Of a stretch of DNA of 64,000 nucleotides, positions 3,424 to 22,905 are shown piece by piece (position 1 is the stretch's first letter; each line of letters starts with the position of its first letter). The notes below the pieces were generated by a model that saw nothing but the letters and a program-made list of their open reading frames with translations, made no database searches and had not been told where the DNA came from. Origin of the DNA: Ceratorhiza oryzae-sativae (taxonomy: Eukaryota > Basidiomycota > Agaricomycetes > Cantharellales > Ceratobasidiaceae); NCBI GenBank assembly GCA_030998015.1, contig JARWMV010000251.1:682001-746000 (forward strand). Direction: 5' to 3'. The position numbers and the translations under genes are program-made.

Positions 3424-3705
3424 TGTCATGGCCTAGACCATGACACAGATTTTATTATGATTTTCCTATATTTTATACATCTCTCTTTTTTCATATTTTG
3501 GACTAGAGATGTTGTGCCAGAATTCCTGCATTCTGGCATCAAGGGTAACTCTATTCCATCAGCTGACCAATCAGCACTTCTGAGCTGCTTCTGCAATTGA
3601 GTTACCCTTGATGCCAGAATGCAGGAATTCTGGCACAACATCTCTATTTTGGACAAGTCCTGTTTAATTGGATATATGCATAGAATTACTTACATGATCA
3701 TGTGA
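3424..3705 (-). mobile_element. Fragment of LTR-C, split by a MITE
   Basis: Starts TGTCATGGCCTAGACCATGA, the minus-strand start of the LTR-C family (complete solo copy at 30416-30982). It matches that copy to about 3705, is interrupted by the MITE at 3504-3646, and then breaks at a hAT-type element. Confidence 0.8.
3504..3646. mobile_element. 143-bp hAT-type MITE
   Basis: Ends are inverted repeats starting TAGAGATGTTGTGCCAGAAT; the two halves are nearly complementary through GGGTAACTC. It is flanked by a perfect 8-bp target-site duplication TTTTGGAC, the duplication length typical of hAT transposition. No coding capacity. The ends match those of the 1443-bp elements in this window, so they probably used the same transposase. 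Confidence 0.92.
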
Positions 3706-5148
3706 TAGAGATGTTGTGCCAGACTCCGTCTGCCAGAATCAGCCAGAATTCTGGCGCTTATTCTGGCATATTTCCGGCATGCAGGAGACGGAGACGGAGC
3801 CGGAATCAGCTCAGGGGTGCCGGAATTTTGCCAGACTCCGAGGAATTCCGGCGCCTGCAGGAATGCCGGAGTTCCTGCTCTGGCAGCTGCGAAGCATTTT
3901 TTGAAACCCATCGCAGACACTCTTAGTATACACCATTAAATGCAGAAAAATCACAGCGTCCCAACGATATATTACACATAGGGTCACAAAATTGTATAGG
4001 CCACATCGCTGGCTAAACAAGTTCAGAGAATAATCAGGGGTAAGCACACTTACAGCCCCTGTTTAGGACTTTACCAATCTCAGTCGTAATGAGTATCAAT
4101 CGATGCGTCTCAGTGAGGGGAATCCAATGGTACCATTCATCGGGCATTTGGAACATTCTACGAGAAGAAATCAGCGAAATAGGGGGGCTCAGCCCCTGAG
4201 GAGTGCCACAGGCACTAGCAATTCTAGCGGTGCAAATATCGCTCCCCTGTGTTCAATCGATGCGATACATCTATTACATGCTATATACAAAAAATCAGCT
4301 CGTTTGAAGCATTATTAACTGACAAAACAGGGGGTAGAACACTTGCAGGGACATAAATCGCTTACCAGAGGCGGTACCGGAGCAACTAGGCTGTTTGAGC
4401 GAATTCTGATGAGACAGATCGACTCCTCGACCTTGAAAACCATACTAGAGGTCCCCTGGTGCGTCTCAAATGTGCTGGAGCAAGTGTTCTATCATCACTG
4501 ACCATGTTTCAGCTGTTGGTATGCAGCACATGGGTGCACCATGCTTGGTTCACCTTGTTCCAACCCCCCTGCCAGAAACATGAAGAACTTTCTGGGGGTT
4601 TTCAGTGCCCAGAAACTCAATCGCACCATTATTGAAGCCTGAATATGCTTGGATACATGTGCATTTGGAGGTACGCATGTTTGGGATTATTTTCTGAGTA
4701 TGTATTGCGCCGCGCAAGACGCTACAGAATTTTCTAGCCTATACTTTTTGATATGAATCGCATGTCTGGAATTTTGCGCATTTAATGAGCTACTGAGCAA
4801 TAAGTTGTGGTGACTTTGAAAAATGTCAGGTTTTGATTCCCCCTGTCTGAGATGTAAAGGATGTCGCATTATACGCACGCGGGGATATTATAATTGGTGT
4901 TATATATCGTTCGAAAGCGCTCGTCAGCGCGCACATTTTGAGCTACAAAGTATCACGATCGGAGCACTTTTAGGGATCATCATATGCAGGAACTCCTTCA
5001 CTCCGGCAGTTCCTGCAACCCTGACGGAATTCCGTACGGAATCTGGCTTCTGGCAGACGGAGACGGAGCTGGAGCAGGAATTGAAAAAAACCGCCAGAAA
5101 CCGTATGCAGGAGACGGATTCCTGCATATTTCTGGCGCAACATCTCTA
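3706..5148 (+). mobile_element. 1443-bp non-autonomous hAT-type element, copy A
   Basis: Bounded by TAGAGATGTTGTGCCAGA and its inverse. It has exactly the same length as the copies at 28725-30167 and 8600-20278 (the latter after removing the nested retrotransposon). The first and last ~190 bp are crowded with short GCAGGAATTCC / CCAGAAT / GGAGACGGAG motifs, resembling subterminal transposase-binding repeats. No long open frame is conserved, so it must depend on a transposase made elsewhere. The flanks do not form a duplication (TCATGTGA against ACACCCTG), so one side has been rearranged since insertion. Confidence 0.85.
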
Positions 5149-5632
5149 ACACCCTGTTGCCTTCCTCAATCCTACTCCACCTATCCACAGCCATGAGACA
5201 TTGTTGCCCTATATGCACCTCTGTGAAACCTTGTACACCTATATCAGTTGAAGCACTACTGGTCTTCACAGATGTGGCTGCTCACTGACTAGAGGTGCTG
5301 TGCAGGAATTCCTGCATGCTGGCATCAAGGGTAACTGTATTGTAGAAGCACCAATTGGTAAGCTGATGCAATTGAGTAACCCTTGATGCCAGTATGCAGG
5401 AATTCCTGCACAGCACCTCTATCACTGACCAAAGGTTGGGTCCCTCACATGTCGTAACAAGCTTCGGTTCTCTAATCTCTTTCGTCAACAAGAGGTGGGG
5501 TCACTCATTGCCCTTAAGTAGTTGAGCAACGGAGGTCACCTTCCTATTCCAATAGACTCAGGAAAGGGTCTATTTTTCTTGTTTCACCTTGCTCTTGCTT
5601 GAGTACATCTCTGACGGAACGCATGGCCCTCA
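5149..5632 (+). repeat. Untranslated leader of retro-D, left copy
   Basis: This stretch is the reverse complement of 34014-34290, apart from the MITE at 5290-5421. In both places it lies immediately upstream of the retro-D first ORF, so it is read as retrotransposon leader. No coding region of its own. Confidence 0.65.
5290..5421. mobile_element. 132-bp hAT-type MITE
   Basis: Inverted ends TAGAGGTGCTGTGCAGGAAT with a perfect 8-bp duplication TCACTGAC on both sides. It shares the GCATCAAGGGTAACT interior with the MITE at 3504-3646. Non-coding. Confidence 0.92.
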
Positions 5633-6547: not shown

Positions 6548-7213
6548 TGTTGTGACCCTCTGGAGGCTTCCTTGTGAAGCACTTAAGTAGTGGCTGTGTT
6601 GACAGTTTGGTGCTATGCAATATGTATTGAGTGTTCTAGTTACAGTGTTTGCTATGGTCTATGGTGGTTGATGAGATAAAGCAAGCTGAGGCGTCCAGTC
6701 TTGCTTTATCCTTATATATACCTGTGGCTGCAGTGGCTGCAGACATATTATCTAAGCACACTCCGCAGTAGGTGTAGGTTATGTACAGTACTATGGGTTA
6801 GGTAATTGTTTGTCTTAAGTTTGTGTGGCTCCGAATCTTATAGAGCCACATGAGGTCCAAGGGGTAGGTGCTGAGGTCACGTGATCCTGCTGTAAGCACT
6901 GAGATCACATGACAACTCGCTCCTCGCTCCAAGTAACAAGGGAGAGAAATGCTGGAGCGAGTTCAGGGTAACCACTGTAAGTGCTGAGGTCATGTGACCC
7001 TGCTGTGAGCGCCAAGGTCATGTGACAACTCGCTCCTCGCTCCAAGTAACAATGGAGAGAAATGCTGGAGTGAGTTCAGGGTAACCACCATAAGCACTGG
7101 CTAAGTGCTGAGGTCACGTGACCTTGTTTATGGCTTGTTCTGCTTAGGAAAAATGCCATAAATCTGTAAGAATATTTGGTTGTTTTGTTATGTCCATTTG
7201 ACAGGTCATAACA
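6548..7213 (-). mobile_element. 3' LTR of Gyp-A copy 2
   Basis: 666 bp, TGTTGTGACCCTCTGG to GGTCATAACA, matching the LTRs at 9111 and 18662. It is followed by ATTATCCCCCCCTTTGG, which on the minus strand is the purine tract priming plus-strand synthesis beside a 3' LTR. Contains two copies of a ~100-bp unit with a CTCGCTCC / GGAGCGAG hairpin and CACGTG-like motifs. Confidence 0.9.
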
Positions 7214-7278
7214 TTATCCCCCCCTTTGGACATGTCTTGGGGGACCTTGAGACATGGTTTAGTTCCTTATGCAAAAGG

Positions 7279-7405
7279 AATCTCATGCACCAAGGAGGTT
7301 AAGGGCACTGGACTCGAACCAACAACCTTTTGGCTGATTCAGTATCGTTCGATGAGGTCAGGCTGAGTCAGGCTAGACCCCTTAACCTCTCCGTTACATG
7401 AGATT
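7279..7405 (-). other. tRNA-like sequence, copy 2
   Basis: On the minus strand AATCTCATG pairs with CATGAGATT at the ends. An A-box-like GGAGAGGTTAAGG and a perfect B-box GGTTCGAGTCC lie in tRNA order, and GAGGTTAAGGG pairs with CCCTTAACCTC. It is too long (~127 nt) and irregular to be a working tRNA. The same structure lies at the same place in copy 1. Confidence 0.55.
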
Positions 7406-7522
7406 GTTTTTCTTTTCTTTGTTGTGGAGGTTATTTAGGGGTGAGGATTTGTCTGCTTCTTCTCAGAATGCCCCAACTGTTTGGATGGGCATAGCAGAAG
7501 TTGTTCAGTACAGTAAATTATT

Positions 7523-8599
7523 CTAAGGGAATACAAAAAATGGTTTTCCTCCTGCATACACCCATTCCACATTTCTTGATACCCATAAGTCCCCTTCTTC
7601 CCCCTCTATGTCCGACCAACATTTCATGATTGCTGACCAGCTATTTCCCAGAATAACTGTTGGCCATACCTTCATTGATTTCACATGCGCATACCTGCCC
7701 ATGAAGTCCGCCTCGTACTGGCTCAGGGCCTTGAGTGAGTACTTCCCGTTTGACTGGACCATGTCGTCCAGGATCCAAATGTCGGCATCTTCCAACAAGT
7801 TGCCCATATTCCACACATTGCACATCTGGCTGTGGCAGCCCTTGGATCATGCATATGCCATTTTCCCTGTTCCAGTTTCTCCTTCTATCACCAGGATGTG
7901 ATGGCACACCCCTCTTCCCCTCTTCTCGACCTCCTCAGCAAACCATCTGTCTGCTCAGTCAATGTGCTCCCAGTCTTCCAGGACCTCTAACTCCACAGGG
8001 ATTGCAGGCATGCAACCCTGGTCTTCCTTGTATGTGTACTTGGCATATGCTCGTACCGAGTTCCACGTTGTCACCATCTGGAGGGGGCGGAGGCGCTTGA
8101 ACGCCTGGTAGTACTCCTGTTTTGTTGCTGAGGCAACAATCTCCGTCCCATCCTCCAAGTCTGCCTCCATCCTTGACTGTTTTCCACCCTTTCCCTTCAC
8201 CAAGATCTCCTCCAACCTTTCCAAGGTCAGGTCCCCTGCCATCAGATCCTCTATCTCCTCGCCATTAGCTCCGACGTCCTTCCAGAGATAGTTGAAGGCA
8301 TCCCTTGCTGGGTTGCCTCCTGGTCCGTCCTTGAGGTCTTTGGGCCGTATGTTGGGGTGTTGCCCCTCGAAGTCCCAGAACCCCGCATTCTGGGTGTTCC
8401 ACCCGCCCTTCTGTTCCTGACTGATGGAGAGGGCGTGGACATGCAGGGGCCGGGTTGGGTTGTAGTTCGGCTCCTCTGGGTTGTGCTGTTCAACCACAGC
8501 TAAGGTTGCCCAGTGATTGGGTCAGTGGTGGCAGAATGCCTCGTATTGGGTGGCGAGCCCACTTGAAGGCTGATCACATAGCTTCAACCAGGTCAGCAG
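7523..8599 (-). pseudogene. CRESS-type Rep, copy 2, decayed C-terminal part
   Basis: Homologous along its length to the open Rep gene at 9986-11272, including the HxH motif (HVHALS), the YLWKD nuclease motif and the IWILDDM helicase motif. It is broken by an in-frame stop after the HID motif and by a frameshift around the Walker A region. The N-terminal part was separated by a hAT element and lies at 20279-20537. Many differences from copy 1 are C-to-T or G-to-A. No working product is expected. Confidence 0.85.
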
Positions 8600-9110
8600 T
8601 AGAGATGTCGCGCCAGAAATATGCAGGAATCCGTCTCCTGCATACGGTTTCTGGCGGTTTTTTTCAATTCCTGCTCCAGCTCCGTCTCCATCTGCCGGAA
8701 GCCGGATTCCGTACGGAATTCCGTCAGGGTTGCAGGAACTGCCGGAGTGAAGGAGTTCCTGCATATGATGATCCCTAAAAGTGCTCCGATCGTGATACTT
8801 TGTAGCTCAAAATGTGCGCGCTGACGAGCGCTTTCGAACGATATATAACACCAATTATAATATCCCTGCGTGCGTATAATGCGACATCCTTTACATCTCA
8901 GACAGGGGGAATCAAAACCTGACATTTTTCAAAGTCACCACAACTTATTGCTCAGTAGCTCATTAAATGCGCAAAATTCCAGACATGCGATTCATATCAA
9001 AAAGTATAGGCTAGAAAATTCTGTAGCGTCTTGCGCGGCACAATACATACTCAGAAAATAATCCCAAACATGCGTACCTCCAAATGCACATGTATCCAAG
9101 CATATTCAGG
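8600..9110 (-). mobile_element. hAT-type element copy C, left part
   Basis: Inverted relative to copy A and starts TAGAGATGTCGCGCCAG. The 8 bp before it, GTCAGCAG, recur right after the other end at 20278. It is interrupted at 9110 by the complete Gypsy element. Left and right parts add up to 1443 bp once the 5-bp duplication is removed. Confidence 0.92.
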
Positions 9111-9688
9111 TGTCGTGACCCTCTGGAGGCTCCCTGGTGGAGCACTTAAGTAGTGGCTACGTTGACAGTTTGATGCTATGCAGTATGTATTGAGTGTTCT
9201 AGTTACAGTGTTTTGCTATGGTCTATGGTGGTTGACAAGATAAAGCAAGCTGAGGCATCCAGTCTTGCTTTATCCTCCTTATATATACCTGTGGCTGCGG
9301 TGGCTGCGGACGTATTATCTAAGCACACTCCGCAGTAGGTGTAGGTTATGTACAGTACTATGGGTTAGGTAATTGTTTGTCTTAAGTTTGTGCAGCTCCG
9401 AATCTTATAGAGCCGCGCGAGGTCCGAGGGTCATGTGACCTTTTGGACTTAAGCACCTGGCGCTTAATCGCTGAATAAGCGCCGAGGTCACGTGACAACT
9501 CGCTCCTCGCTCCAGGTAACATGGGAGAGAAACGCTGGAGCGAGTTCAGGGTAACCACCGGCGCTTAATCGTTAGGTAAGCGCCGAGATCACGTGATCCT
9601 GTTTATGGTTTGTTCCGCTTCGGGAAAAATGCCATAAATCTGTACAATATTTGGTTGTTAGGTTATGTCTGCTAGGCGGGTCATAACA
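9111..9688 (-). repeat. 3' LTR of Gyp-A copy 1
   Basis: 578 bp, TGTCGTGACC to GGTCATAACA. The minus-strand purine tract AAAGGGGGGATAAT abuts it at 9689, which fixes it as the 3' LTR of a minus-strand element. It has one copy of the hairpin unit that is doubled in the other LTR. Confidence 0.93.
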
Positions 9689-9764
9689 TTATCCCCCCCT
9701 TTGGACATGTCTTGGGGGATCTCGAGGCATGTTTCTTTTCTGGGTTCTAAAAGTTTCTAAAAGG

Positions 9765-9891
9765 TATCTCATATATCAAGGAGGTTAAGGGCGCTGGACC
9801 CGAACCCACGACCTTCCGTTCAATGTGTAATTGATTAGCTAGGAGATGATGAGTCAGGCTAGACCCCTTAACCTCTACGCTACATGAGATT
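9765..9891 (-). other. tRNA-like sequence, copy 1
   Basis: Same arrangement as 7279-7405: a terminal stem, A-box-like TAGCGTAGAGGTTAAGG, B-box-like GGTTCGGGTCC and pairing of GAGGTTAAGG with CCTTAACCTC. It has no canonical anticodon arm. It lies between the Rep stop codon and the polypurine tract. Confidence 0.5.
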
Positions 9892-9985
9892 ACTTTCTCC
9901 TTGCTTATTTCCTTGTTTAAGCTTACTTCTCGACACATGGTCTGTGAATAAAACAAGCTTATACAAAGATAATTTATTTTTATTT

Positions 9986-11272
9986 TTAAGGAAAAATAAA
10001 AAATGGCTTCCCTCCTGAGTATACCCAGTCTACGTTCTTGGATACCCATAAGTCCCCTTCTTCCCCCTCTATGTCCGTCCAACACTTCATTATGGCCGAC
10101 CGGCTATTCCCCAGGATCACCGTCGGCCGTACCTTCATTGACTTCACATGAGCATATCTGCCTGTGAAGTCTGCTTCGTACTGGCTCAGGGCTTTGAGCG
10201 AGTACTTCCCGTTTGACTGGACCATGTCATCCAGGATCCAGATGTCAGCGTCCTCCGACAGATTCCCCATGTTCCAGACATTGCACATCCGGCTATGGGA
10301 GCCCTTGGATCGTGCATACGCTGTCTTCCCAGTTCCTGTTTCGCCTTCGATCACCAGGATGCGATGGCGCACGCCCCTCCCTCTCTTCTCAGCCTCTTCC
10401 GCAAACCATCGGTCTGCCCTGTCGATGTGCGCCCGGTCTTCTGGGACTTCCAACTCCACCGGGATTGCAGGCATGCATCCCTGGTCCTCCTTATATGTGT
10501 ACTCAGCATATGCTCGTACCGAGTTCCACGTCGTCACCATCTGGAGGGGGCACAGGCGCTTGAATGCCTGGTAGTATTCTTTTTTTGTTGCTGAGGCAAC
10601 AATCTCCGCCCCGTCCTCCAGGTCCGCCTCTGCCCTTGACCTTTTCCTGCCCTTTCCCTTCACCAGGATTTCCTCTAACCTTTCCAAGGTCAGGTCCCCC
10701 GCCATCAGCTCCTCTACCTCCTCGCCGTTAGCTCCGACATCCTTCCAGAGGTAGTTGAAAGCCTCCCTTGCAGGGTTGCCTCCTGGTCCGTCCTTGAGGT
10801 CCTTCGGCAGGATGTTGGGGTGTTGCCCCTCGAAGTCCCAGAACCGGGTGTTCTGGGTGTTCCAGCCGCCCTTCCGCTCCTGACTGATGGAGAGGGCGTG
10901 GATATGGAGGGGCCGGGCCGGGTCGTAGTTCGGTTCCTCGGGGTTGTGGCGTTCCACCACTGCCAAAGTCACCCAATGATTTGGCCGTTGGCGGCAGAAC
11001 GCCTCGTATCGGGCGACGAGCCCACTTGAGGGCTGATCGCATAGCTTCGACCAGGTCAGCAGCACCGCCCTGGTCTGGACGCGGAACCGAGGGGCCGGCG
11101 CGGTTTCGGTCAGCTCTTCGGACCCTCGATCCGTCGGCGTAGGCCGCATAGAAGCGGGTGAGTGGGCTCGGCTTGATACCGAGGGCGCTGGCGATGGCGA
11201 CGCCGACCTCCGCCCTTCGCTTGATCCGCTTGGCTGGGGTGTTGCCGCGTTCGATCCATTTCCGCTTAGCAT
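9986..11272 (-). CDS. CRESS-DNA-virus-type replication initiator (Rep), open
   Basis: 428 codons, uninterrupted. The N-terminal ~60 residues are Ser/Pro rich. HUH-nuclease motifs follow in the expected order: motif I VLLTWSK (70-76), motif II PLHIHALS (121-128), an FxxxHPNI block resembling the geminivirus GRS region (~146-153), and motif III YLWKD (174-178) with the catalytic Tyr. The superfamily 3 helicase part has Walker A GETGTGKT (310-317), Walker B IWILDDM and motif C ILGN (386-389). In viruses such proteins nick the origin, join ends and unwind DNA for rolling-circle replication. Here the gene sits on the same strand as gag-pol in the env position of a Gypsy element, and a decayed copy holds the same place in a second element. 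Whether it is expressed or active is unknown. Confidence 0.9.
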   Translation of the reverse strand: MLSGNGSNAATPQPSGSSEGRRSASPSPAPSVSSRAHSPASMRPTPTDRGSEELTETAPAPRFRVQTRAVLLTWSKLCDQPSSGLVARYEAFCRQRPNHWVTLAVVERHNPEEPNYDPARPLHIHALSISQERKGGWNTQNTRFWDFEGQHPNILPKDLKDGPGGNPAREAFNYLWKDVGANGEEVEELMAGDLTLERLEEILVKGKGRKRSRAEADLEDGAEIVASATKKEYYQAFKRLCPLQMVTTWNSVRAYAEYTYKEDQGCMPAIPVELEVPEDRAHIDRADRWFAEEAEKRGRGVRHRILVIEGETGTGKTAYARSKGSHSRMCNVWNMGNLSEDADIWILDDMVQSNGKYSLKALSQYEADFTGRYAHVKSMKVRPTVILGNSRSAIMKCWTDIEGEEGDLWVSKNVDWVYSGGKPFFIFP

Positions 11273-11315
11273 CGTTTACAGTTTTAGAGGTATTTGGGGA
11301 CTGGGAAGAGAGCAT
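11000..11315 (-). CDS. Alternative N-terminal frame overlapping Rep
   Basis: A frame starting at 11315 overlaps the start of Rep in another register. Its first ~60 residues include a likely nuclear localisation signal (AKRIKRR). The corresponding frame in copy 2 (20279-20537) keeps the same residues better than chance (GNTPAKRIK, ALGIK, FYAAYADGS), with one stop. It may be the true N-terminus, joined to the Rep frame by a splice or frameshift I cannot place. Confidence 0.4.
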
Positions 11316-11753
11316 GAGAGTGCGGGTTATCTCGGGCCTTGTGCTTGTCTATATAAGCTGCAAGGTCCGTTTTGATCGTCACATGACTCCGTCTTGCATT
11401 TGTTGTGATCACATGACCTTGTTTTGATGATGACGCATCTCCGAGGGGTGCCCTCCCATCCGTTCCTCTGCGTTGGCCTTGATCCTCGCTACGCTCGGGG
11501 CCTCCGCTCCCCCACTTCGGTTGGTGCCCCCTCTCCGACCCCTCCGGTAGTTAGGGGATAGCGTATATTCACGTGACTAGGCTAGGTCATGTGATTCCTG
11601 TGCTTTGTTGTTTGTTTTCTGGCAGATGGTCACGTGTCTGTTGGTGTCACCTGACCAGACCTTGTTTTGATGTTTGTGCAAGTTATTGTGTTGCACTGTG
11701 ATTTTTTAATGTTTGTGGTTTTGTTGTTTTCCTTCCTCATCCCATTCTTTACT
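11316..11753. promoter_or_regulatory. Divergent promoter between Rep and ORF-X
   Basis: Intergenic stretch between two divergently read cargo genes. It contains several CACGTG or near-CACGTG sites (TTCACGTGAC near 11569, GTCACGTGTC near 11630) and repeated GACTAGGCTAGGTCATGTG blocks, also kept around 20777-20860 in copy 2. Function is inferred from position only. Confidence 0.45.
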
Positions 11754-12295
11754 ATGCGCGTTATTTCCCTTAACTACAATCCCCTTGACTGCACCTGCTG
11801 GTCTCTCCCTGAGGGGGAGTACTGCACCTACTGTGATGCCATGTGCGACGCCTCCCTTGAAGATTTCTATCAAGGTGTTGGGGACTGGTTCTTCTGTGGG
11901 GTGCCAGGTATGTGTGTTTGTTCTTCGTCATTCTCACGTAGCTAACTCGTTCTGTAGAAGAGCGCATCCTCCTTGATGGTCAGGCCCATGAGGCCACCCT
12001 TGAGCATGTCTGGGTGCTTGTTGATCAGGACTACAAGTCCTTTGAGGAGCGGTCCCACCAGGCCGCTCTTGCCAAATTCTTCGAGGAGGGCTCTGCTCCC
12101 TTGTTTGATGAGGCTTTGCCCTTTGCAGCATCTGGTTCTGGGTGTTTCCAGAACTACATGGCCGACTTCCCAGGGGGGGAGGCCCCCTGGCTGTTGCCTG
12201 AGAACCGGGCCGGTGGTTCTGTGGCCCATACTACTAGGAAGGATAAGAAGGCAAAAAAACCCTATACCCGGCCCCTCAAGGGCAAGAAAAAATAG
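11754..12295 (+). CDS. ORF-X, Cys-rich antisense cargo gene with an intron
   Basis: Two exons, 11754-11907 and 11958-12295, joined by a 50-bp GTATGT...TAG intron, give a protein of about 163 residues. The N-terminus has a Cys cluster (CTCW, CTYC, AMC, FFCG) that might bind zinc. The middle is acidic, and the last ~20 residues are strongly basic (KDKKAKKPYTRP, then KKK). It is read opposite to gag-pol and Rep. The copy at 20978-21534 keeps the frame, intron position and both splice sites, which supports a real gene. No family recognised. Because it is antisense, its intron is not removed from the retrotransposon's genomic RNA. Confidence 0.75.
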
Positions 12296-12375
12296 AAACA
12301 TTTTGAAATGTATTATTATATGATTATGAAAATTATTCTTAAGACATTCCAAAAAACGTGTGATAGGCCCGATAA

Positions 12376-13392
12376 TCACAGGGGCTCCGGGGCCAGCAGG
12401 GGCACTTCCTCCAGGGCGCCTGCCAGCTCATCCTCCCATTTGGCCCAATCCGTTTGGACTCCCTCTTGGGCCGGGTCCGGGGTTGGTTCCTTTATCGTTA
12501 CTCTCGGCTCCTCCTCCTTCACCACCAGGGACTCCAGGCTTGCCGTGAGGCTCGACATATCTGTGTCGTAACCGTGCAGGTTTGGGCGTACCTTCACCCA
12601 GTTACGGAAGTCGGCCAAGTTTGCTTCCTTCAACCTGATGGCAGTAAACATTTCATCAGTGGTAGTGGCCTCAAGCAGTCCCACATACGGTGCCGCCGGT
12701 GCCAGCTTCCACTGCTCCAACAGTGCCTTTGCCCGGCGCTCCACCTCCCAGTCCCCTCCGTCTGCCATTTGGCCTGTGGCCCTCCTCTGTTGCCTTGCTG
12801 CCTTGGTCACCACGTCGACTGTTGGTCCCACGATATTGTCGACGACATACATCGGTGTTCTTAACAAGGCGTTTCTCGTCGTTGGCTTCCGGCTTCCATG
12901 CCATGTCAGGACCCCTAACCTGGGATCCAGGTACTTGTCATCGTCAATCCAGTTCCTTTCATCCCTTAACTTCTTTGGGATGTACACTAGGTTAGCCCCT
13001 GGCAACAGTCGTTCGGCGTACCTCTGGGCGTCTTCCACACTGGAGCAGTACATCCCTGGTTTAGGACGATTTTCCCTGCCAGGGTAGGGTGCTGGCCGCC
13101 TGGTGGTGGGTGGCTGCCGAAGTGGGGCCACCTGATTTTCGGCAAGTGGGGTGTAACGGTTGGGATGTGCGATTGGGTGAGTGAAAAGGCATGCTTTTGG
13201 GGTTTCGCAGGTGTGTTGTGGTGCAAGTGAGGTAGTAGAGCGGGCTCTGGCCTTTCTTGGGTATCCTGGATGGCTCCTTTTAAAGCTTTCCAGATCCTCG
13301 TTTGGTTCTCTTTGGCCTGCCTTTCGAGTCACCTGAGTGCTGACTTGTCTTGACTGGCATTGGTGCGTCTGGTAAGCGCCTTTGCAAGTCAT
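12376..13392 (-). CDS. ORF-Y, unknown cargo protein downstream of pol
   Basis: Open for 338 codons, overlapping the 3' end of pol by ~110 bp in another frame. The most conserved part is the second half (CSSVEDAQRYAERLLPG; YIPKKLRDERNW; an acidic tail). In copy 2 the homologous frame begins with an ATG at 22530, whose equivalent here is ACG, and this copy has a small frameshift in its first ~60 residues. It may therefore normally start about 13320 or be made by reinitiation after pol. No domain recognised. Confidence 0.6.
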   Translation of the reverse strand: MTCKGAYQTHQCQSRQVSTQVTRKAGQREPNEDLESFKRSHPGYPRKARARSTTSLAPQHTCETPKACLFTHPIAHPNRYTPLAENQVAPLRQPPTTRRPAPYPGRENRPKPGMYCSSVEDAQRYAERLLPGANLVYIPKKLRDERNWIDDDKYLDPRLGVLTWHGSRKPTTRNALLRTPMYVVDNIVGPTVDVVTKAARQQRRATGQMADGGDWEVERRAKALLEQWKLAPAAPYVGLLEATTTDEMFTAIRLKEANLADFRNWVKVRPNLHGYDTDMSSLTASLESLVVKEEEPRVTIKEPTPDPAQEGVQTDWAKWEDELAGALEEVPLLAPEPL

Positions 13393-14421
13393 TTAGAACC
13401 TCTTTCATGTCAGCAAACTTGCTGGCACGTTCCATTGTGTCTTCTATTGGGTCGTAGCCCTTCCATCTGATTTGGTAAAACAGCTCGCCATTCCGCCATT
13501 CATAATTTGCAATGTGGTCCACCTCGTATTCCTCCTCTCCTTTTTCCGTTATGATTGGTGGTGGTTTGGCCTGCCTTCTTCGGAAGTCTTTATCTTCTGT
13601 GAATGGCGAGAGGAGATTTACATGGAATACATTGTGTACACGTATAGTTTTAGGTAGGTCCAGGCGATATGCATGGGATGAGATCTTTTCTGTGATTTCA
13701 AAGGGCCCCCCTTTTCGGTTGTCCAGTTTCTTGGAGGGTCTCTTGGACGAGAGGTTTGTTAGGAGCAGCCAAACCTTGTCTCCTACCTTGAATTCCCTCC
13801 CTTTCTTTTCCATTTGTTGGTGTAATTCCATTGAGGCTCTTGCCTCATCCCATACCTTTTCCATTTGATTACGCATGTTGTCTGCAGCGGGTGCCTCAGA
13901 TGGTTCTTCTCCCTCTCGGACAACCCATCTTGGGTTTTTTCCATATACTGTTTCAAATGGGGTTTGTCCTGTTGTAGCATTTACGTGGTTGTTATGGCAG
14001 AATTCGGCAATGGGTAACCATTTTACCCAATCATCTTGTCTATAATTGCAGAAGGTTCTTAAGAACCCTTCTACCCATTGATTTGTCCTTTCCGACAGAC
14101 CATCTGTTTCTGGATGGAAAGCAGTGGAGAATCTGGGCTTTGTCCCAATTCCTTTGTATAGGGCTTTAGGAATTGGCTGTTAAAGGTTGGCCCTCGGTCT
14201 GAGACAGTGGTTTCTGGGGTCCCGTGATGTCTCCATACTTCCCTTATGAATATTTCTGCCAGTTCTTCTGCATTGGTGCTCTCCAGACATGGTACAAAAT
14301 GGGCCTGCGGGAGAAGCGATCTACAACTGTCAAATACTGTCGTACCCCTTTGAGACAGGTAATTTGACGATGAAATCATATGCGACATCTGCCCATGGTT
14401 TCCATGGGATTGGTAAGGACT
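13280..14421 (-). pseudogene. Integrase core to chromodomain, frameshifted
   Basis: 13876-13280 is open and encodes the integrase C-terminal region (KVGDKVWLL; HNVFHVNLL) and a chromodomain (about 13530-13380, with YEWRNGELFYQIRWKGYDP). The upstream core, around 14388-14071, contains VSDRGPTFNSQF but is split by indels. Chromodomains direct chromovirus integration to marked chromatin. With the core broken, integrase cannot be made from this copy. Confidence 0.85.
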
Positions 14422-16689
14422 TCAGGGAGTGCCTTGTTTGTGTCCTTTGCTTCTTTGACACGTTTCACAAGATTCCACGTATCGGTTTACTTGGGCCTTC
14501 ATTCCTGGCCAATAGTAATCCCTTGATAGTAATTCTAGTGTTCGGGCTTGTCCCTGATGACCTGCCACTGGGGCGTCATGGCACTCCTCAAGGAGACTCA
14601 ACCTCAAGTCCTTGTCATCTGGGATGTAGAGCCTATCGTCATACCTTAATAGGCCCTCCTTCATTTCATACCGTCTAAATTCCTTCTGTACTGAGGGCGG
14701 TAGTTGTTCTTTATTTGCCACACTCAGCCTTAAGGATCTGATAGATTCGTCTTCTTCCTGAGCTTCTTTAAGCTCTTCCCAGAAATTCCCCTGTACTTCT
14801 GCCATGAAACCTATGAACCTTTCTTCTGGAATCATGATCTGTGGTTCCATAGGGGTATCCCCATGGTCGCTCCTTCTGGAAAGGGCATCTGGCTTCTGTG
14901 AGAGTTTCCCTGGTCTGTACACAATCTGAAAATTGAAGGGTGCCAGAGTGAGATACCATCTGGCATGCCTTCTATTCCACATCTGGGCATTTTGCCAGTA
15001 CTGGAGGTTCCTATGGTCAGTGTATATCACAATAGGTTCCTCTGTCCCTTCTAAGTATAACCTCCAGTGCTCTAAGGACCTAACAATTGCAAGCAACTCC
15101 TTGTCGTAGGTGTCATAATTTTTCTCTGGTGGGGTGAAGCTCTTCGATAGGAAGGCAATTGGATGCAATCGGTTGTCATCACCCTTTTGGCTTAGTACCG
15201 CCCCCATGGCCACTCCTGAGGCGTCTGTTTCCAGTATGTATGGCCTGTTTGGGTTTGGGTGGATCAGGACCGGTTCTCTTGCTACTGCTTCTTTGATAGC
15301 TTCAAATGCTTCCTGTTGTTTTCTTTCCCACAGGAATTTGACATCTTTTTGGGTGAGATCTGTGAGGGGTTTGGCTAAGGTACTAAACTTCTCTATCCAC
15401 CTTCTATAGAACCCCACGAAGCCTAGGAAGGCTTGGACTTCTTTTACTGTGTTAGGTTCTGGCCATTCTAGAACTGCCTTTACCTTTTCCTTTTCCATCG
15501 ATATCCCTTCTGGGGATATGACAATTCCAATGAAGCTTACCTCCTTCACAAAGAACTGACACTTGTGTGGTTTGAGGAAGAGGTGGTTTTCCCTCATTCT
15601 TCTTAACACTTCCCTGACATGTTGTACGTGTTCTTCCCTGTTTCTGGAAAACACTAGTACATCGTCCATGTAGATTACCACATAATCGTCTATTATATCA
15701 CGGAACTTTTCCATCATGAACCTGGTAAAGGTTCTTGGTCCTTCTTTTACTCCGAATGGCATGACCAAGCATTCAAACTGGCCTTCTCCTGTCCTGAAAG
15801 CTGTTTTCCATTCGTCTCCCTCTTTTACCCTGATGTTGTTGAACCCCCATCGAACATCCATTTTTGAATAGATGGTTGCATCCTTCAGTCTCTCAATCAA
15901 TTCTATTTGGATTGGAAGTGGAAACCTGTCTGGCTTGGTGATGTCATTCATCTTACGGTAGTCGACTACCAACCTAAGCCCTCCATCTGCTTTGTTCACA
16001 TAGAAACAGGGTGCAGCTACAACTGACTGGCTGGGCCTTATTTTCCCGTTTCTTAGTTCCTCCTCTAGGTACTCCCTGAGCGCCTTTGTTTCTGCTGGCG
16101 ACATACTGTACCTCTTTGCAGGCTTTGGCAGCTCCGCTCCCTCGATCAGGTCCATTTTGAAGTCTAGGTTACCTCGGTGGGGTGGAAGTTCTCGGAAACC
16201 TTCTTCCCCAAATAGGTCTTCAAAATCCCTAAATTCTTCTGGGATTTGTAGGCTTTCACTTGCTGCCCTTGCCTTGATTTCGTCTGGGTATGAGATGGTA
16301 AGGTCTTTCCAATCTATGATAGGTTCTGCTTCTTCAAGCCATTCTTTCCCTAGGACTATGTCTGTGTCACCTAGGGTCATTACATAAAGGGAGCATTTTA
16401 GTGTCTTCCCTTCCACTTCGATGTTTAGTTCTGCCCTTTCTTCTATGGCATCCTTGATTTCATTTCCATCAATGGCCACAATTGATTTCTTGTGTTTGAG
16501 GGGAGTGGTTGGAATCCCTTTTTCCCTTGAATAGGCCTTATCGATGAAGTTGGTTGAAGATCCTGAGTCAATCAGCGTCTTAGCTGGTTCCATGATTCCC
16601 TCTACCGTAGTGTATATTATTGATTGATTACTAGACTTCTTGAGGTAACATACATCTGCGGTAGGGGTTATATTGGGGTCCTCCAACAT
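14422..16689 (-). CDS. Gypsy pol: protease, RT, RNase H, integrase zinc domain
   Basis: 755 codons open. In order: aspartic protease (LIDSGSSTNF, ~40-50), reverse transcriptase with YMDDVLVF, RNase H (ETDASG; YTDHRNLQYW), and the HHCC zinc domain of integrase (CHDAPVAGH...CETCQ). The frame ends by a frameshift right after the zinc domain. Residue order and the chromodomain downstream mark it as a Ty3/Gypsy chromovirus. Confidence 0.92.
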   Translation of the reverse strand: MLEDPNITPTADVCYLKKSSNQSIIYTTVEGIMEPAKTLIDSGSSTNFIDKAYSREKGIPTTPLKHKKSIVAIDGNEIKDAIEERAELNIEVEGKTLKCSLYVMTLGDTDIVLGKEWLEEAEPIIDWKDLTISYPDEIKARAASESLQIPEEFRDFEDLFGEEGFRELPPHRGNLDFKMDLIEGAELPKPAKRYSMSPAETKALREYLEEELRNGKIRPSQSVVAAPCFYVNKADGGLRLVVDYRKMNDITKPDRFPLPIQIELIERLKDATIYSKMDVRWGFNNIRVKEGDEWKTAFRTGEGQFECLVMPFGVKEGPRTFTRFMMEKFRDIIDDYVVIYMDDVLVFSRNREEHVQHVREVLRRMRENHLFLKPHKCQFFVKEVSFIGIVISPEGISMEKEKVKAVLEWPEPNTVKEVQAFLGFVGFYRRWIEKFSTLAKPLTDLTQKDVKFLWERKQQEAFEAIKEAVAREPVLIHPNPNRPYILETDASGVAMGAVLSQKGDDNRLHPIAFLSKSFTPPEKNYDTYDKELLAIVRSLEHWRLYLEGTEEPIVIYTDHRNLQYWQNAQMWNRRHARWYLTLAPFNFQIVYRPGKLSQKPDALSRRSDHGDTPMEPQIMIPEERFIGFMAEVQGNFWEELKEAQEEDESIRSLRLSVANKEQLPPSVQKEFRRYEMKEGLLRYDDRLYIPDDKDLRLSLLEECHDAPVAGHQGQARTLELLSRDYYWPGMKAQVNRYVESCETCQRSKGHKQGTP

Positions 16690-16706
16690 GGAAGTGGTAG
16701 GACCAA

Positions 16707-16889
16707 TTAGTTTTCCGACTCAGAGCTGCTTTCTTCCTCAACTTGTCTGCTGGCCTTCCCTTGTATCTTAGCTTTGTCGTAGGTCCACTGGCCTCGGCAC
16801 TCCTTCAGGACATGCCCTGATTTACCGCATTTGATACAGAGTCCTTCTTTCCTTCGCCTGTCCTTTTCACTGTTTGGTATCCTTACCAT
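16707..16889 (-). pseudogene. Gag zinc knuckle
   Basis: Contains a CCHC knuckle CIKCGKSGHVLKEC, as in retroviral nucleocapsids, in a frame offset from gag core and pol. A small indel or stop separates it from 16928. Confidence 0.75.
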
Positions 16890-16927
16890 GTTGTTGGTTT
16901 GGGTATTCCCCTGTTTGCCGCTGGTCC

Positions 16928-18540
16928 CTAAAGGCTTGTTCCCCCTTGTTTGTATTTCGCTGGTGCCCAGGTTGAATTTGATGAGTTGCTGGTCCTTGTA
17001 TTCATTTTCTGGTTTGCAAACTGCATGTCATCCATTTTGCAGGCAAAGTCGATTAATTGATCTAAGGTATATGATGGACCTTCAGCCTCATTTGCCAGTA
17101 CTTCAATCCTTAAGATCTCTTGTCGTACTTCGGGTTTTAACCCTTCCCTGAATTGGTCCTTGAGGGCTTCCTGGTTCCAGTCTACCTCTTGGATCAGGAT
17201 CCGGAATTGGGTAGCATAATCCAATGCACTCTTGGTCTGTGTTAATTTCCTTAGTTTCCGGATGGTCTTTTCCTTTATGACTGGGTCATTAAAAGCATCC
17301 AGGAATCCCTTCCTGAAATCCTTCCAGGATGCAAGAATACCTGTGTGTTCGCCTGCTAGTAGTTTCCGGCGGTAAGGTTGTGCCCAGTTTGCTGCTTCCC
17401 CATCCTCCATGTTCATTAGCACAGCAGATATCTTTTTTCGGTCATCAAAGGCTGATTCGTCATAGTCAGCAAAGAAAAGTTCCATGCTGATTATGAAGTT
17501 CTCTGCTTCCTTCCCTTTTTCCCATTAAATTTGCTGGGTCTCCCTAGTCTCGCCTCCTTAGGAGTGTGGTTTGCAGCAAGGGTAGGTTGGTTTGCTTGGG
17601 ATGGAGGTTCTGTTCGGGGTCTTATTGTGGACTCAGCCTGGAAGGTTCTTCCCAGAAAGGGTGTTCGTACTGGGGAGGCTGAGGGGGATCGTGAGGGGCT
17701 TCCTATGACCACCCTAGTTCTTCCCCTGGTTTCTTCTGTCCCTTCCCTTGGCCTTCCTGCTTCAGTTGTTTTCCGGAGCTCATTTCCTAGATCGGTTACC
17801 CGTTGTTCTAGTGCGATTAGGATCTCCCCTGTGTTTTCGGTTTTCTTCTCTAAGCTTTCGAGCTTTCGCTCTTGCATTCCCAGTACCCGGTTTATTTCCA
17901 TGGAGATGTCCTTTAATTCTTTTATCAGGTTCCCCATTTCTGCTTTTAGGTCGTCCTGGTTCTTTGCCACATAGAGGACATTTTTGTTGGATGTTTCCAT
18001 TGACCTTACCATCCAGTCCACGTTTCCTTCTTGTCGGGTTAGTGATATTTGACACTGATTTATACCCGTGATTGCCTTTTCTAGTTCCCTATGATTATTG
18101 TCTCTAAGTTCCTTGAGCCCTGCCCTGATGGCTGTGGCAATGGTGTGAATAGGGTTGGCAGTGGCTATGGTTCTGGGACCTGGCTGGGGTTGTGTCCTTG
18201 CCTCTTCCGCCAAGGCTGTGCCTTGTTCGTATATGGTTCGGGTCATATCTTCTACCTCATCCCTTTCTGGGTTTGAGATATCTTCTGGGTCTGGATTTAT
18301 CAGATGAATTGTTGGTTGAGGGCTGCGGAGTGGTATTCCCCCTATTTCCCCTCCCAGGATGGGGGCCCGAGTGGGGTTGGGTTGAGCCACTGGTCGTGGG
18401 TTTTGTGGCAACCCCCCTGGCATTCCTTGGAGGGTCTCATCTGGGTTACCTTCCGCCTCTGGGGAAGCAATGGGTTTGGGTGATTGTGGCCTACTATTTG
18501 CCACCCTGCTTTGAGATCGAGTTTGTGGTCTCTGTGACAT
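16928..18540 (-). pseudogene. Gypsy gag, split by one frameshift
   Basis: 18540-17491 gives a Pro/Arg-rich N-terminus and a coiled-coil-like middle. 17485-16928 gives the gag core (MELFFADYDESAF... FRKGFLDAFND). The two parts are offset by a single-base change near 17500-17520, in a run of T and C. Otherwise continuous, consistent with a recent insertion. Confidence 0.85.
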
Positions 18541-18661
18541 AGTTTCTTTGTGTTCTCTTATGTATCACAGGAGTTAGCTGGTTTTCTCGTGTACTCAGCC
18601 CTTAGTATCTGTGTAGTATACTTGTGTTCGCCACTAGTTAAGTTAAGAGCTTGCTTTATAA

Positions 18662-19341
18662 TGTCGTGACCCTCTGGAGGCTCCCTGGTGGAGCACTTAA
18701 GTAGTGGCTACGTTGACGGTTTGGTGCTATGCAGTATGTATTGAGTGTTCTAGTTACAGTGTTTTGCTATGGTCTATGGTGGTTGACAAGATAAAGCAAG
18801 CTGAGGCATCCAGTCTTGCTTTATCCTCCTTATATATACCTGTGGCTGCGGTGGCTGCGGACGTATTATCTAAGCACACTCCGCAGTAGGTGTAGGTTAT
18901 GTACAGTACTATGGGTTAGGTAATTGTTTGTCTTAAGTTTGTGCGGCTCCGAATCTTATAGAGCCACGTGGGGTCCGAGGGTCATGTGACCTTTTTTGGA
19001 CTTAAGCACCTGGCGCTTAATCGCTGAATAAGCGCCGAGATCACGTGACAACTCGCTCCTCGCTCCAGGTAACATGGGAGAGAAACGCTGGAGCGAGTTC
19101 AGGGTAACCACCGGCGCTTAATCATTGGTAAGCGCCGAGATCACGTGACAACTCGCTCCTCGCTCCAGGTAACATGGGAGAGAAACGCTGGAGCGAGTTC
19201 AGGGTAACCACCGGCGCTTAATTGTTAGGTAAGCGCCGAGATCACGTGATCCTGTTTATGGTTTGTTCCGCTTCGGGAAAAATGCCATAAATCTGTACAA
19301 TATTTGGTTGTTAGGTTATGTCTGCTAGGCGGGTCATAACA
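18662..19341 (-). repeat. 5' LTR of Gyp-A copy 1
   Basis: 680 bp, same ends as the 9111 LTR. It contains two tandem ~100-bp units (19032 and 19132 onwards), each with TCACGTGA and a CTCGCTCC / GGAGCGAG hairpin. TSD TCAGG follows at 19342-19346. Confidence 0.93.
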
Positions 19342-20278
19342 TCAGGCTTCAATAATGGTGCAATTGAGTTTCTGGGCACTGAAAACCCCCAGAAAGTTCT
19401 TCATGTTTCTGGCAGGGGGGTTGGAACAAGGTGAACCAAGCATGGTGCACCCATGTGCTGCATACCAACAGCTGAAACATGGTCAGTGATGATAGAACAC
19501 TTGCTCCAGCACATTTGAGATGCACCAGGGGACCTCTAGTATGGTTTTCAAGGTCGAGGAGTCGATCTGTCTCATCAGAATTCGCTCAAACAGCCTAGTT
19601 GCTCCGGTACCGCCTCTGGTAAGCGATTTATGTCCCTGCAAGTGTTCTACCCCCTGTTTTGTCAGTTAATAATGCTTCAAACGAGCTGATTTTTTGTATA
19701 TAGCATGTAATAGATGTATTGCATCGATTGAACACAGGGGAGCGATATTTGCACCGCTAGAATTGCTAGTGCCTGTGGCACTCCTCAGGGGCTGAGCCCC
19801 CCTATTTCGCTGATTTCTTCTCGTAGAATGTTCCAAATGCCCGATGAATGGTACCATTGGATTCCCCTCACTGAGACGCATCGATTGATACTCATTACGA
19901 CTGAGATTGGTAAAGTCCTAAACAGGGGCTGTAAGTGCGCTTACCCCTGATTATTCTCTGAACTTGTTTAGCCAGCGATGTGGCCTATACAATTTTGTGA
20001 CCCTATGTGTAATATATCATTGGGACGCTGTGATTTTTCTGCATTTAATGGTGTATACTAAGAGTGTCTGCGATGGGTTTCAAAAAATGCTTCGCAGCTG
20101 CCAGAGCAGGAACTCCGGCATTCCTGCAGGTGCCAGAATTCCTTGGAGTCTGGCAAAATTCTGGCACCCCTGAGCTGATTCCGGCTCCGTCTCCGTCTCC
20201 TGCATGCCGGAAATATGCCAGAATAAGCACCAGAATTCTGGCTGATTCTGGCAGACGGAGTCTGGCACAACATCTCTA
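19342..20278 (-). mobile_element. hAT-type element copy C, right part
   Basis: Continues the element begun at 8600 and ends CAACATCTCTA; the 8-bp duplication GTCAGCAG follows at 20279-20286. The first five bases are the Gypsy target-site duplication. Confidence 0.92.
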
Positions 20279-20537
20279 GTCAGCAGCACCACCCTGGTCT
20301 GGACACAGAATCGGGGGGCCTGTGTGGTTTCGGTCAGCTCTTTGGACCTGCGATCCATCAGCGTAAGCTGCATAGAAGCAGGTGAGGGGGTTCAGCTTGA
20401 TTCCAAGGGCGCCAGTGATGGTGATGGCGACCTCTGCCCTGTGCTTGATTCGTTTGGCTGGGGTGTTCCCACGTTTGAGCCATCTTCACTTAGCATTGTT
20501 GGTGTTTTTAGAAGTAGATGCGTCTTGTGGGGAGGGC
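20279..20537 (-). pseudogene. CRESS-type Rep copy 2, decayed N-terminal part
   Basis: Homologous to the first ~75 codons of the Rep gene at 11272 and ends at the start of motif I, where the hAT element cut the gene. It holds in-frame stops in both candidate registers. The rest of this pseudogene is at 7523-8599. Confidence 0.8.
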
Positions 20538-20977
20538 ATGAGATGATAGCCCCCTTTACCCCCAAAGGTGTCCCCTAGATATACCCTCTCTGGTTGTTGT
20601 GGTCACGTGGTTTCCTGATGTAGGCTTGTGCTGGTTATGACACATCTCTGAGGGGTGCCCTTCCTGCGTTCCCCTGTGTCAGCCTTTCTCCTCGCTACGC
20701 TCGGGGCCTCCGCTCCTCCACTTCGGTCGGTGCCCCCTCTCTGACCCCTCCAGTAGTTAGGGGATAGCATATATTCACGTGACTAGGCTAGGTCATGTGA
20801 TTCCTGTGCTTTGTTGTTTGTTTTCTGGCAGGTGGTCATGTGACTAGGCTAGGTCATGTGTCTGTTGGTGTCTCCTGACCAGACCTTGTTTTGATGTTTG
20901 TGCAAGTTATTGTGTTGCACTGTGATTTTTTAATGTTTGTGGTTTTTGTTGTTTTCCTTCCTCATCCTGTCTTTACT
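20538..20977. promoter_or_regulatory. Divergent cargo promoter, copy 2
   Basis: Matches 11316-11753, including TTCACGTGACTAGGCTAGG and a shared CTCGCTACGCTCGGGG block near 20692. Some CACGTG sites have become CATGTG. Confidence 0.45.
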
Positions 20978-21534
20978 ATGCACGTTATTTCCCTTAACTA
21001 CAATCCCCTTGACTGCACCTGCTGGTCTCTCCCTGAGGGGGAGTACTGTGCCTACTGTGATGCCGTGTGCGACGCCTCCCTTGAAGACTTCTATGGAGGT
21101 GTTGGGGATTGGTTCTTCTGTGGGGTGCCAGGTACGTGTGCTCGTTCTTCATCATTCTCACATAGCTAACTTGTTCTGTAGAAGAGCGCATCCTCCTTGA
21201 TGGTCGGGCCCATGAGGCCACCCTTGAGTGTGTCTGGGCGCTTGTCGATCAGGACTACAAGTCCTTTGAGGAGCGGTCTCACCAGGCCGCTCTTGCCGAA
21301 TTCTTTGAGGAGGGCTCTGCTCCCTTGTTTGATGAGGCTTCACCCTTTGCAGTGTCTGGTTCTGGGTGTTTCCAGAACTACATGGCCAACTTCCCAGGGG
21401 GGGAGGCTCCTTGGCTGCGGCCCACTACCCAGTCAGTTGTTCAGACCAATAAGAAGGATAAAAAAGGCAAGAAGCCCTATACCCAGCCCCTCAAGGGCAA
21501 ACGTAAAATAGAGAGTAAAAGGGAAATGTATTAA
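20978..21534 (+). CDS. ORF-X copy 2
   Basis: Exons 20978-21131 and 21182-21534, with the same intron position and phase as 11754-12295. The Cys cluster is kept and the frame is open to the stop; the basic tail differs (GKRKIESKR). That both copies stay open over two exons argues against random sequence. Confidence 0.7.
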
Positions 21535-21600
21535 GTTTGATGTGTAAAAAAAAATAAAACTCTTATACATTCGGGAGAAAATCTGTGGGAGGCAAAGTGG

Positions 21601-22530
21601 TCATATGGGGGTTGGTTCCAACAGTGGCACCTCCTCCAGAGCTTCGACAAGCTTGTTTTCCCACTGGTCCCAGTCTTGTTTGGCTTCCTCCGCAGCTGGG
21701 TCCAGGGTGGGTTCCTTTATTTCTGGCTTGGCTTCTTCCTCAGCCACAACCAGTGATTCTAGGCTTGATGTAAGGCTCGTCATATCAGTGTCGTAATTGG
21801 TGTTTTTGTTTGGGTGCACCTTCACCTAATTTCGGAAGTCGCTCATGTTTGCCTGCTTCGTCCTGATAGCAGTAAACATCTCATCAGTGGTAGTTGCTTC
21901 GAGCAGTCCCACATACAGTGCGGCTGGTGTCAACTTCCATTCTTCCAGCAATGCCTTGGCCCGGCGCTCCACCTCCCAGTCCCCCCCATCTGCCATTTGG
22001 CCTGTGGCCCTCCTCTGTTGTCTTGCTGCCTTAGTCACCACGTCGACTGTTGGTCCCATGATATTGTCAATGACATACATCAGTGTTCTTAGCAAGGTGT
22101 TTCTTGTCATTGGCTTCCGGCTTCCATGCCATGTCAGGACCCCTAACCTGGGATCCAGGTACTTGTCATCGTTGATCCAGTTCCTTTCATCCCTTAACTT
22201 CTTTGGGATGTACACTAGGTTAGCCCCTGGCAACAGTCGTTCGGCGTACCTCTGGGCATCTTCCACACTGGAGCAGTACATCCCTGGTTTAGGACGATTT
22301 TCCCTGCCAGGGTAGGGTGCTGGCCACCTAGTGGTGGGTGGCTGCTGAAGTGGGGCCAACTGATTTTCAGGAAGTGGTGTGTAATGGTTGGGATGTGCGA
22401 CTGGGTGAGTGACAAAAGGCATGTTTTGGGGTTTTGCAGGTGTATTGTGGTGCAAGTGAGGTGGTAGAGCAGGCTCTGGCCTTTCTTGGGTATCCTGGAT
22501 GGCTCTTTTTAAAGCTTTCCAGATCCTCAT
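21601..22530 (-). pseudogene. ORF-Y copy 2, interrupted near the C-terminus
   Basis: 22530-21826 is open from an ATG (234 codons) and matches ORF-Y of copy 1. A stop (TAG after DFRN) splits off the acidic tail, which stays open from 21825 to 21601. It shows the probable true start of the protein. Confidence 0.65.
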
Positions 22531-22905
22531 TTGGTTCTCTTTGGCCTGCCTTTCGAGTCACCTGAGTGTTGACTCATCTTGACTGGCATTGGTGCATCTG
22601 GTAAGCACCTTTGCAAGTCATTTAGAACCTCTTTCATGTCAGCAAACTTGCTGGCACGTTCCATTGTGTCTTCTATTGGGTCATAGCCCTTCCATCTGAT
22701 TTGGTAAAACAGCTTGCCATTCCGCCATTCATAATTTGCAATGTGGTCCACCTTGTATTCCTCCTCTCCTTCTTCCATTATGATTGGTGGTGGTTTGGCC
22801 TGCCTTCTTTGGAAGTCTTTATCTTCTGTGAATGGCGAGAGGAGATTTACATGGAATACATTGTGTACATGTATGGTTTTAGGTAGGTCCAGGCGATATG
22901 CATGG
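22527..22905 (-). pseudogene. Chromodomain remnant of Gyp-A copy 2 pol
   Basis: 22778-22527 encodes the same chromodomain (YEWRNGKLFYQIRWKGYDP) as copy 1. The integrase tail just upstream is cut at 22905 by an LTR-B end, so the rest of this element (pol, gag, 5' LTR) is missing. Confidence 0.85.

Follow-up and report, generated by a model that had tools for sequence, protein, structure and literature searches.

We have analyzed a window of 64,000 nt of Ceratorhiza oryzae-sativae DNA (GCA_030998015.1, contig JARWMV010000251.1, positions 682,001–746,000 of the forward strand), in which a Ty3/Gypsy chromovirus carries a gene similar to that for the replication initiator protein (Rep) of circular Rep-encoding single-stranded (CRESS) DNA viruses. 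The element is 10.2 kb in length, lies on the minus strand, and extends from one long terminal repeat (LTR) to the other at 9111–19341. A preliminary description of this DNA had placed an open Rep frame of 428 codons between pol and the 3′ LTR on the strand of gag-pol, and this is what we find. The Rep open reading frame (ORF), encoding HUH-type followed by superfamily 3 (SF3) helicase motifs, occupies 9986–11272 on the minus strand, upstream of the 3′ LTR (9111–9688, minus strand). Pfam identifies Retrotrans_gag, Ty3_capsid, RVT_1, RNase H, integrase zinc-binding and chromodomain matches on the same strand. Of the span proposed originally, 9986..11315, the first coordinate was correct; 11315 is not the start codon of the Rep frame, which is at 11272, but the start of a second frame offset by +1.

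The domains are in chromovirus order, with gag preceding protease, reverse transcriptase, RNase H and an integrase with a C-terminal chromodomain. Following the 5′ LTR (18662–19341) there is an ORF at 17491–18540 with no Pfam family above cut-off, taken as the N-terminal part of gag by its position. Pfam then places the gag capsid region (Retrotrans_gag and Ty3_capsid) at 16928–17485, the protease, reverse transcriptase, RNase H and integrase zinc-binding domains of pol at 14422–16689, and the integrase C-terminal SH3-like domain and chromodomain at 13280–13876. ORF338 (12376–13392; 338 aa, no Pfam match) lies between integrase and the Rep block. All are on the minus strand. The LTRs have TG..CA ends, the target-site duplication is 5 bp (TCAGG at 9106–9110 and 19342–19346), and a polypurine tract (AAAGGGGGGGATAA in the element sense; 9689–9702, minus strand) is directly upstream of the 3′ LTR. 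The two LTRs have 7 mismatches in 578 aligned positions, the 5′ LTR being ~100 bp longer by one extra tandem unit. The target repeat has a second, inverted copy at 3984–5148, which represents an unoccupied paralogous target. This copy is uninterrupted at the TCAGG site, and thus the DNA from LTR to LTR, Rep included, was inserted as a single unit. The initial view of a complete retrotransposon therefore holds structurally from LTR to LTR, but the gag-pol of this copy is broken across several frames.

The N-terminal half of the window Rep (P0001) contains in order HUH motif I (LLTWS, residue 71), motif II (HxH; HIH, 123) and motif III (YxxK; YLWK, 174). Motif I usually has a Y where this protein has W. 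The SF3 motifs GETGTGKT (310), ILDD (346) and ILGNS (386) follow; Walker A, Walker B and B′ are present by profile and motif, and motif C by motif only. The catalytic residues are retained. Using patterns written after the protein had been seen, 200,000 shuffles of P0001 produced the motif-I/HxH/YxxK series 56 times, the SF3 series 4 times and both together never.

Profile comparisons were made with relatives of RepA from the Bifidobacterium plasmid p4M, 25 of 45 listed being aligned. p4M RepA itself matches Pfam Viral_Rep with E = 3e-7 and a circovirus Rep in the PDB with E = 2e-10. The whole Rep profile matched this pCRESS/CRESS set in the helicase region only, with a probability of 83–85% compared with at most 1.2% in 20 shuffled controls, and the helicase half alone gave 94%. 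Single-sequence controls with other P-loop proteins overlap the CRESS Reps, so the argument lies in the extension of the helicase match beyond Walker B into the RY (B′) region and not in the P-loop alone. Comparison of the N-terminal half with the same set using hhalign gave a probability of 0.8%, inside the shuffled range; its assignment as HUH therefore rests on motif order and predicted topology. In Pfam no family scored above cut-off for Rep. Gemini_AL1_M (PF08283, the central domain of geminivirus Rep) was matched under its curated cut-off in 7 of 14 relatives (best E = 0.001), and the alignments shown run from profile position 10–12 to 106 of 107. A PF08283 search of the genome gave no match, and as the controls were likewise without one it carries no weight.

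The predicted topology of Rep is β-α-β-β-α, with the tyrosine on the last helix. When pCRESS Reps were added to the alignment, the resulting model had a predicted local distance difference test (pLDDT) score of 51.9. Its top-ranking matches, both in a viral library and by VIA-align 2, are CRESS Reps, a ranking biased by the pCRESS Reps in the input; parvovirus NS1, adeno-associated virus (AAV) helicase and picornavirus 2C come close after them in the latter. AAA ATPases lead the plain Foldseek list of solved structures, with a circovirus Rep at rank 18. A model from the protein's own relatives alone, without pCRESS Reps, had a pLDDT of 35 and gave no match at E = 0.001. As far as the SF3 helicase half is concerned, the motifs and the profile give good support to the term CRESS-type, used from the outset for this gene; for the probable HUH half it applies by motif order and predicted topology only.

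Rep is a regular component of this Gypsy family. In a genome search 98 of 254 candidates were scored and all 98 match, so that there are at least 98 copies; 90 of the 98 span residues 1–428. An LTR lies 3′ of Rep in the same orientation in all 30 Rep loci fetched, and within the stretch at hand the antisense gene described below was matched in 28 of the 30 and ORF338 in 26. ORF338 or pol is listed upstream on the same strand for 79 of the 98 Rep matches. ORF338 has at least 119 matches in the genome, and for 77 of these 119 Rep is listed no more than 12 kb downstream, at 999–1481 bp in 64 cases. Absence of Rep from other copies, or junctions created by faulty assembly, had been named as outcomes that would speak against a Rep-bearing retrotransposon. 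With Rep in at least 98 places and an LTR in 30 of 30 loci, neither is borne out.

No Rep is listed within 14 kb downstream for 24 of 64 pol matches. The downstream DNA was read for 21 of these 24; C15, with Rep listed ~16 kb downstream, and C190 and C210, judged to be near contig ends, were left out. All or part of Rep was present in 20 of the 21. Ten of the 21 have ORF338 no farther than 1.5 kb away; Rep is present in every one of these, in some with insertions or deletions, and an LTR match in nine, one of them a mere edge fragment. Rep was found in 10 of the remaining 11 (only the first 172 or 274 residues being within the stretch in two) and the LTR inside the stretch in 6. The single exception, L048, has a pol match ending at residue 685, and neither a chromodomain nor ORF338 nor Rep was matched within 6 kb. 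Its appearance is that of a damaged copy, not of a family member lacking Rep; because this one exception is a pol fragment, no intact Rep-less member was seen among the 21 downstream stretches. Rep, the antisense spliced gene and ORF338 are a constant block that follows pol and precedes the 3′ LTR, and they are mobilized together with the element.

The antisense gene (11754–12295, plus strand) is arranged head to head with Rep. Its exons (11754–11907 and 11958–12295) flank a 50-nt GT-AG intron and encode 163 aa with a cysteine-rich N-terminus and basic C-terminus, and no Pfam match. It has a full-length match in 36 of 40 loci. Of 37 aligned rows (L001 and the window row, here and below, represent a single copy), 36 conserve the boundaries of the intron. 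Splicing gives an open frame of at least 150 aa in 31 of the 37, and the unspliced frame is open in none of them. An intron on this strand would survive retrotransposition because the genomic RNA would be unspliced there. The ratio of nonsynonymous to synonymous substitution (dN/dS) is 0.12–0.33 for the pairs printed with dS > 0.1, except for pairs with L012 or L039, both of which carry frame changes and give 0.33–0.92. The intergenic region between the two genes (11273–11753, no strand assigned) has a TATA that precedes the Rep ATG by 83 nt and four TCAYRTGA motifs, with a ~71-bp unit that varies in number between elements. These motifs lie in tandem units of variable number common to the LTRs and the putative Rep promoter region (11569–11640), and the units could be a binding site for a host factor or for Rep.

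The Rep protein has been under purifying selection between element lineages. In pairwise Nei-Gojobori comparisons L001 has dN = 0.028–0.081 and dS = 0.37–0.71 with L012, L024, L030 and L033, corresponding to ratios of 0.08–0.11, and dN/dS = 0.17–0.19 with L034 and L036. Between pairs of non-window lineages the ratio is 0.23–0.52, so the strong signal lies in comparisons with the lineage of the window. Ratios within lineages are 0.28–0.52, as expected after insertion. CpG-type changes dominate among close copies, making up 247 of the 333 differences when L001 is compared with ten of them, and the count was therefore repeated on transversions alone. This gave 0.10–0.15 in six of seven pairs, the seventh being 0.22 with 11 changes. 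Just 29 of the 98 Rep matches are full length without stops. TAG or TAA occurs in 5 of the 98 and every other stop is TGA, as expected from CpG loss. On these sequence data we take Rep to be a gene that works for the element between transpositions, not a fossil.

The first ~57 codons of Rep behave differently. The constrained frame here is not that of Rep but the +1-offset frame that starts at 11315 (11094–11315, minus strand), identified by substitution phase, by its open frame and by a match in Ceratobasidium AG-Ba. When two groups of copies are compared, 19, 7 and 6 differences lie at its third, first and second positions, respectively (chi-square p = 0.007). It is open for 75 codons from the ATG in 23 of 29 copies, and the offset is identical in 40 of 41 rows. 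Its residues 39–72 match residues 39–72 of the AG-Ba Rep P0008 with 22 of 34 identical (65%, E = 2e-12), and in P0008 an N-terminus of this kind is fused in frame with Rep. It contains basic stretches that by eye are like nuclear localization signals. The real protein may start at 11315 with a +1 shift near the junction, or the gene may give two products.

The window contains a second Rep element, an older minus-strand copy of the same family that has been split by a DNA repeat and by the newer element. Its 3′ part (6548–8605) has the LTR at 6548–7213 and Rep residues 69–428 from 8605 down to 7526. The 5′ part (20227–22904) has the N-terminal part of Rep (20496–20227), the intergenic region (20625–20977), the antisense gene (20978–21507, plus strand), ORF338 (22621–21604) and the chromodomain (22904–22512). 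There are thus three nested layers, with the Rep of the older element split by the repeat (8600–9110 and 19342–~20200) and the newer element inserted in the repeat. Some copies are mosaic in their divergence from the window element. L012, L024, L026 and L030 are 89–91% identical to it in Rep, 75–76% in the spacer and 87–89% in the LTR, and 95–97% identical in the intergenic region; for pol, the L012 element reaches 99%. Rep and LTR have thus been swapped, as a 3′ module, between lineages of the element. Such exchange is what might be expected from template switching.

The Rep protein had been proposed for a search against other fungi and CRESS Reps. In phmmer and profile searches every hit with an organism name is Ceratobasidium (AG-Ba, 395, 428, 394, 414 and UAMH 11750), the rest being mostly metagenomic. 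Full-length Rep frames are present in AG-Ba, 395 and 428, and shorter ones in 394, 414 and UAMH 11750. No relative of the family was confirmed among 25 pattern matches in IMG/VR, where one Walker A pattern retrieved no contig and another retrieved two long ones, taken as unrelated. Annotated phages gave no Rep match. Three Robbsia records from a plasmid search had E = 9 and were taken as chance.

CRESS viruses and plasmids replicate autonomously as circles and have a stem-loop origin. Circovirus Rep and p4M RepA share with the present protein the order of HUH-type then SF3 motifs; they differ in that no such origin was found in the chromovirus element. Helitrons also bring an HUH nuclease and a helicase together in a eukaryotic mobile element. 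Theirs is a two-tyrosine HUH protein with a superfamily 1 helicase in an element without LTRs, whereas the Rep here has one YxxK and SF3-type motifs, and the element has LTRs. LTR retrotransposons are known to acquire env and a few enzymes. The excerpts available of two papers describe a captured ORF3 in LTR elements, including bdelloid Vesta/TelKA and Drosophila gypsy env (PMC5408684), and orchid Gypsy elements carrying an AlkB RNA demethylase (PMC9289625). These resemble our element in having an extra gene, often downstream of pol and sometimes viral, but in those excerpts the genes are env, esterase, exonuclease and demethylase, with no initiator of DNA replication. The nearest precedent, as excerpted from Liu et al. 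2011 (PMC3198968), is a geminivirus-like terminal inverted repeat (TIR) transposon of Tuber melanosporum with 37-bp TIRs, transposase ORFs, no obvious target-site duplication and an interrupted Rep. It too is a multicopy fungal mobile element with a geminivirus-like Rep gene. Our element differs from it in ending in LTRs with a 5-bp target-site duplication, in encoding reverse transcriptase and integrase within a gag-pol with chromodomain, and in having an open Rep under purifying selection. None of the elements compared, to the extent of those excerpts, unites Rep with an LTR retrotransposon, and we found no report of one in a literature search that covered neither preprints nor most subscription journals.

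Our preferred explanation, to which we give about an even chance, is that a chromovirus lineage of Ceratobasidium-type fungi took up a CRESS-type initiator of replication, which it has since retained as an accessory gene. Rep would have an internal promoter of its own, in a head-to-head arrangement with the antisense gene. A transcript from the LTR would run ~7.4 kb before reaching Rep, and the TATA and the TCAYRTGA motifs shared with the LTRs are consistent with a separate promoter. The N-terminal part of Rep would come from the other frame, linked to the remainder by a +1 shift of the ribosome or in some different way. The protein would then enter the nucleus and act as nickase and helicase on a DNA form of the element, either complementary DNA (cDNA) or LTR circles, raising the number or survival of integrable copies. 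If Rep is functional, such action on the element's own DNA has a little less than an even chance and is weighed somewhat above action on the host through the cell cycle or DNA methylation, which is possible; a role mainly as a DNA-binding regulator of the LTR and internal promoters is slightly less probable. The element appears to be one that copies through RNA and has recruited the replication enzyme of a DNA virus. A retrotransposon family with about a hundred copies in which selection maintains an initiator from single-stranded DNA viruses would unite two supposedly separate replication strategies, and the element provides a concrete, testable case for the spread of Rep genes in eukaryotic genomes.

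Several other explanations bear on whether Rep is used and on what. A CRESS-like Rep and its neighbor could have landed once in the ancestor of the family and been hitch-hiking unused ever since. The decay of most copies, with 29 of the 98 full length and free of stops and the stops nearly all TGA, would fit this, as would the ratios within lineages (0.28–0.52) and among non-window lineages (0.23–0.52). Yet the values of 0.08–0.19 between the window lineage and six divergent copies, maintained on transversions, the retention of the active-site residues and the Rep frames in Ceratobasidium already disfavor this reading, and we consider it quite unlikely. Geminivirus Reps are described as acting on the host cell cycle and methylation, and Rep might similarly act on the fungal cell, promoting S-phase entry or relieving methylation silencing, and not on element DNA. 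Methylation is a likely pressure given the CpG decay of the copies, but this role alone would not account for all the nuclease and helicase residues being kept. We regard it as somewhat unlikely.

Doubt may also be raised about the nature of the block itself. The divergent arrangement of Rep and its antisense partner is that of many CRESS viruses, and could suggest an independent mobile element, such as a Rep-driven transposon, sitting by chance in a chromovirus. The truffle transposon excerpted from PMC3198968 is a Rep-bearing element of that general kind. This is highly improbable given the LTR 3′ of Rep in every locus fetched, the ORF338-to-Rep distance of 1.0–1.5 kb in 64 of 77 linked cases and the presence of the block 3′ to pol in 20 of the 21 additional copies read; moreover no Rep locus outside an LTR/pol context was seen among the 51 genome stretches read beside the window. 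It might be argued instead that the protein is a P-loop ATPase of a different class, joined to a domain in which HUH-like motifs occur by chance, as the HUH half has no profile support, P-loop controls overlap CRESS Reps and no Pfam match is above cut-off. This seems to us very unlikely, since the helicase match continues past Walker B to RY (B′), Gemini_AL1_M aligns over nearly its whole profile in several members, the motif order and the predicted β-α-β-β-α topology with Y on the last helix both speak against it, and the top structural matches are CRESS Reps, albeit with the bias of the pCRESS alignment.

Retaining the view of Rep as an accessory gene of the chromovirus, its action on LTR circles or cDNA remains speculation, as it was when first suggested. 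A mixed RNA/DNA life cycle, in which Rep would nick and unwind LTR circles or single-stranded cDNA and allow rolling-circle copying before integration, is unlikely; if true, it would place two replication engines in one retrotransposon. Neither the CRESS nonanucleotide NANTATTAC nor TARTATTAY is present within the element (9111–19341), and rolling-circle copying is consequently possible but unsupported. The nearest strings are ACGTATTAT in both LTRs and ATGTATTAT at 12308, neither being of the required form. An LTR hairpin (CTGCGGA..TCCGCAG with TATTAT in the loop) is recognizable in most of 34 aligned loci; L020 and L022 have changes in both its loop and its stem, and it was rejected as an origin.

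Some minor features of the window were observed in addition. ARAGORN finds no tRNA genes, and Rfam gives two matches only, both far under gathering scores. The segment 9759–9896, between Rep and the 3′ LTR, is tRNA-like by eye, with A-box- and B-box-like strings and 7-bp end pairing, and is not called as a tRNA by ARAGORN. Inverted-repeat stretches starting TAGAG(A/G)TG at 3504–3646, 5287–5421 and 8600–9110 resemble small DNA transposons.
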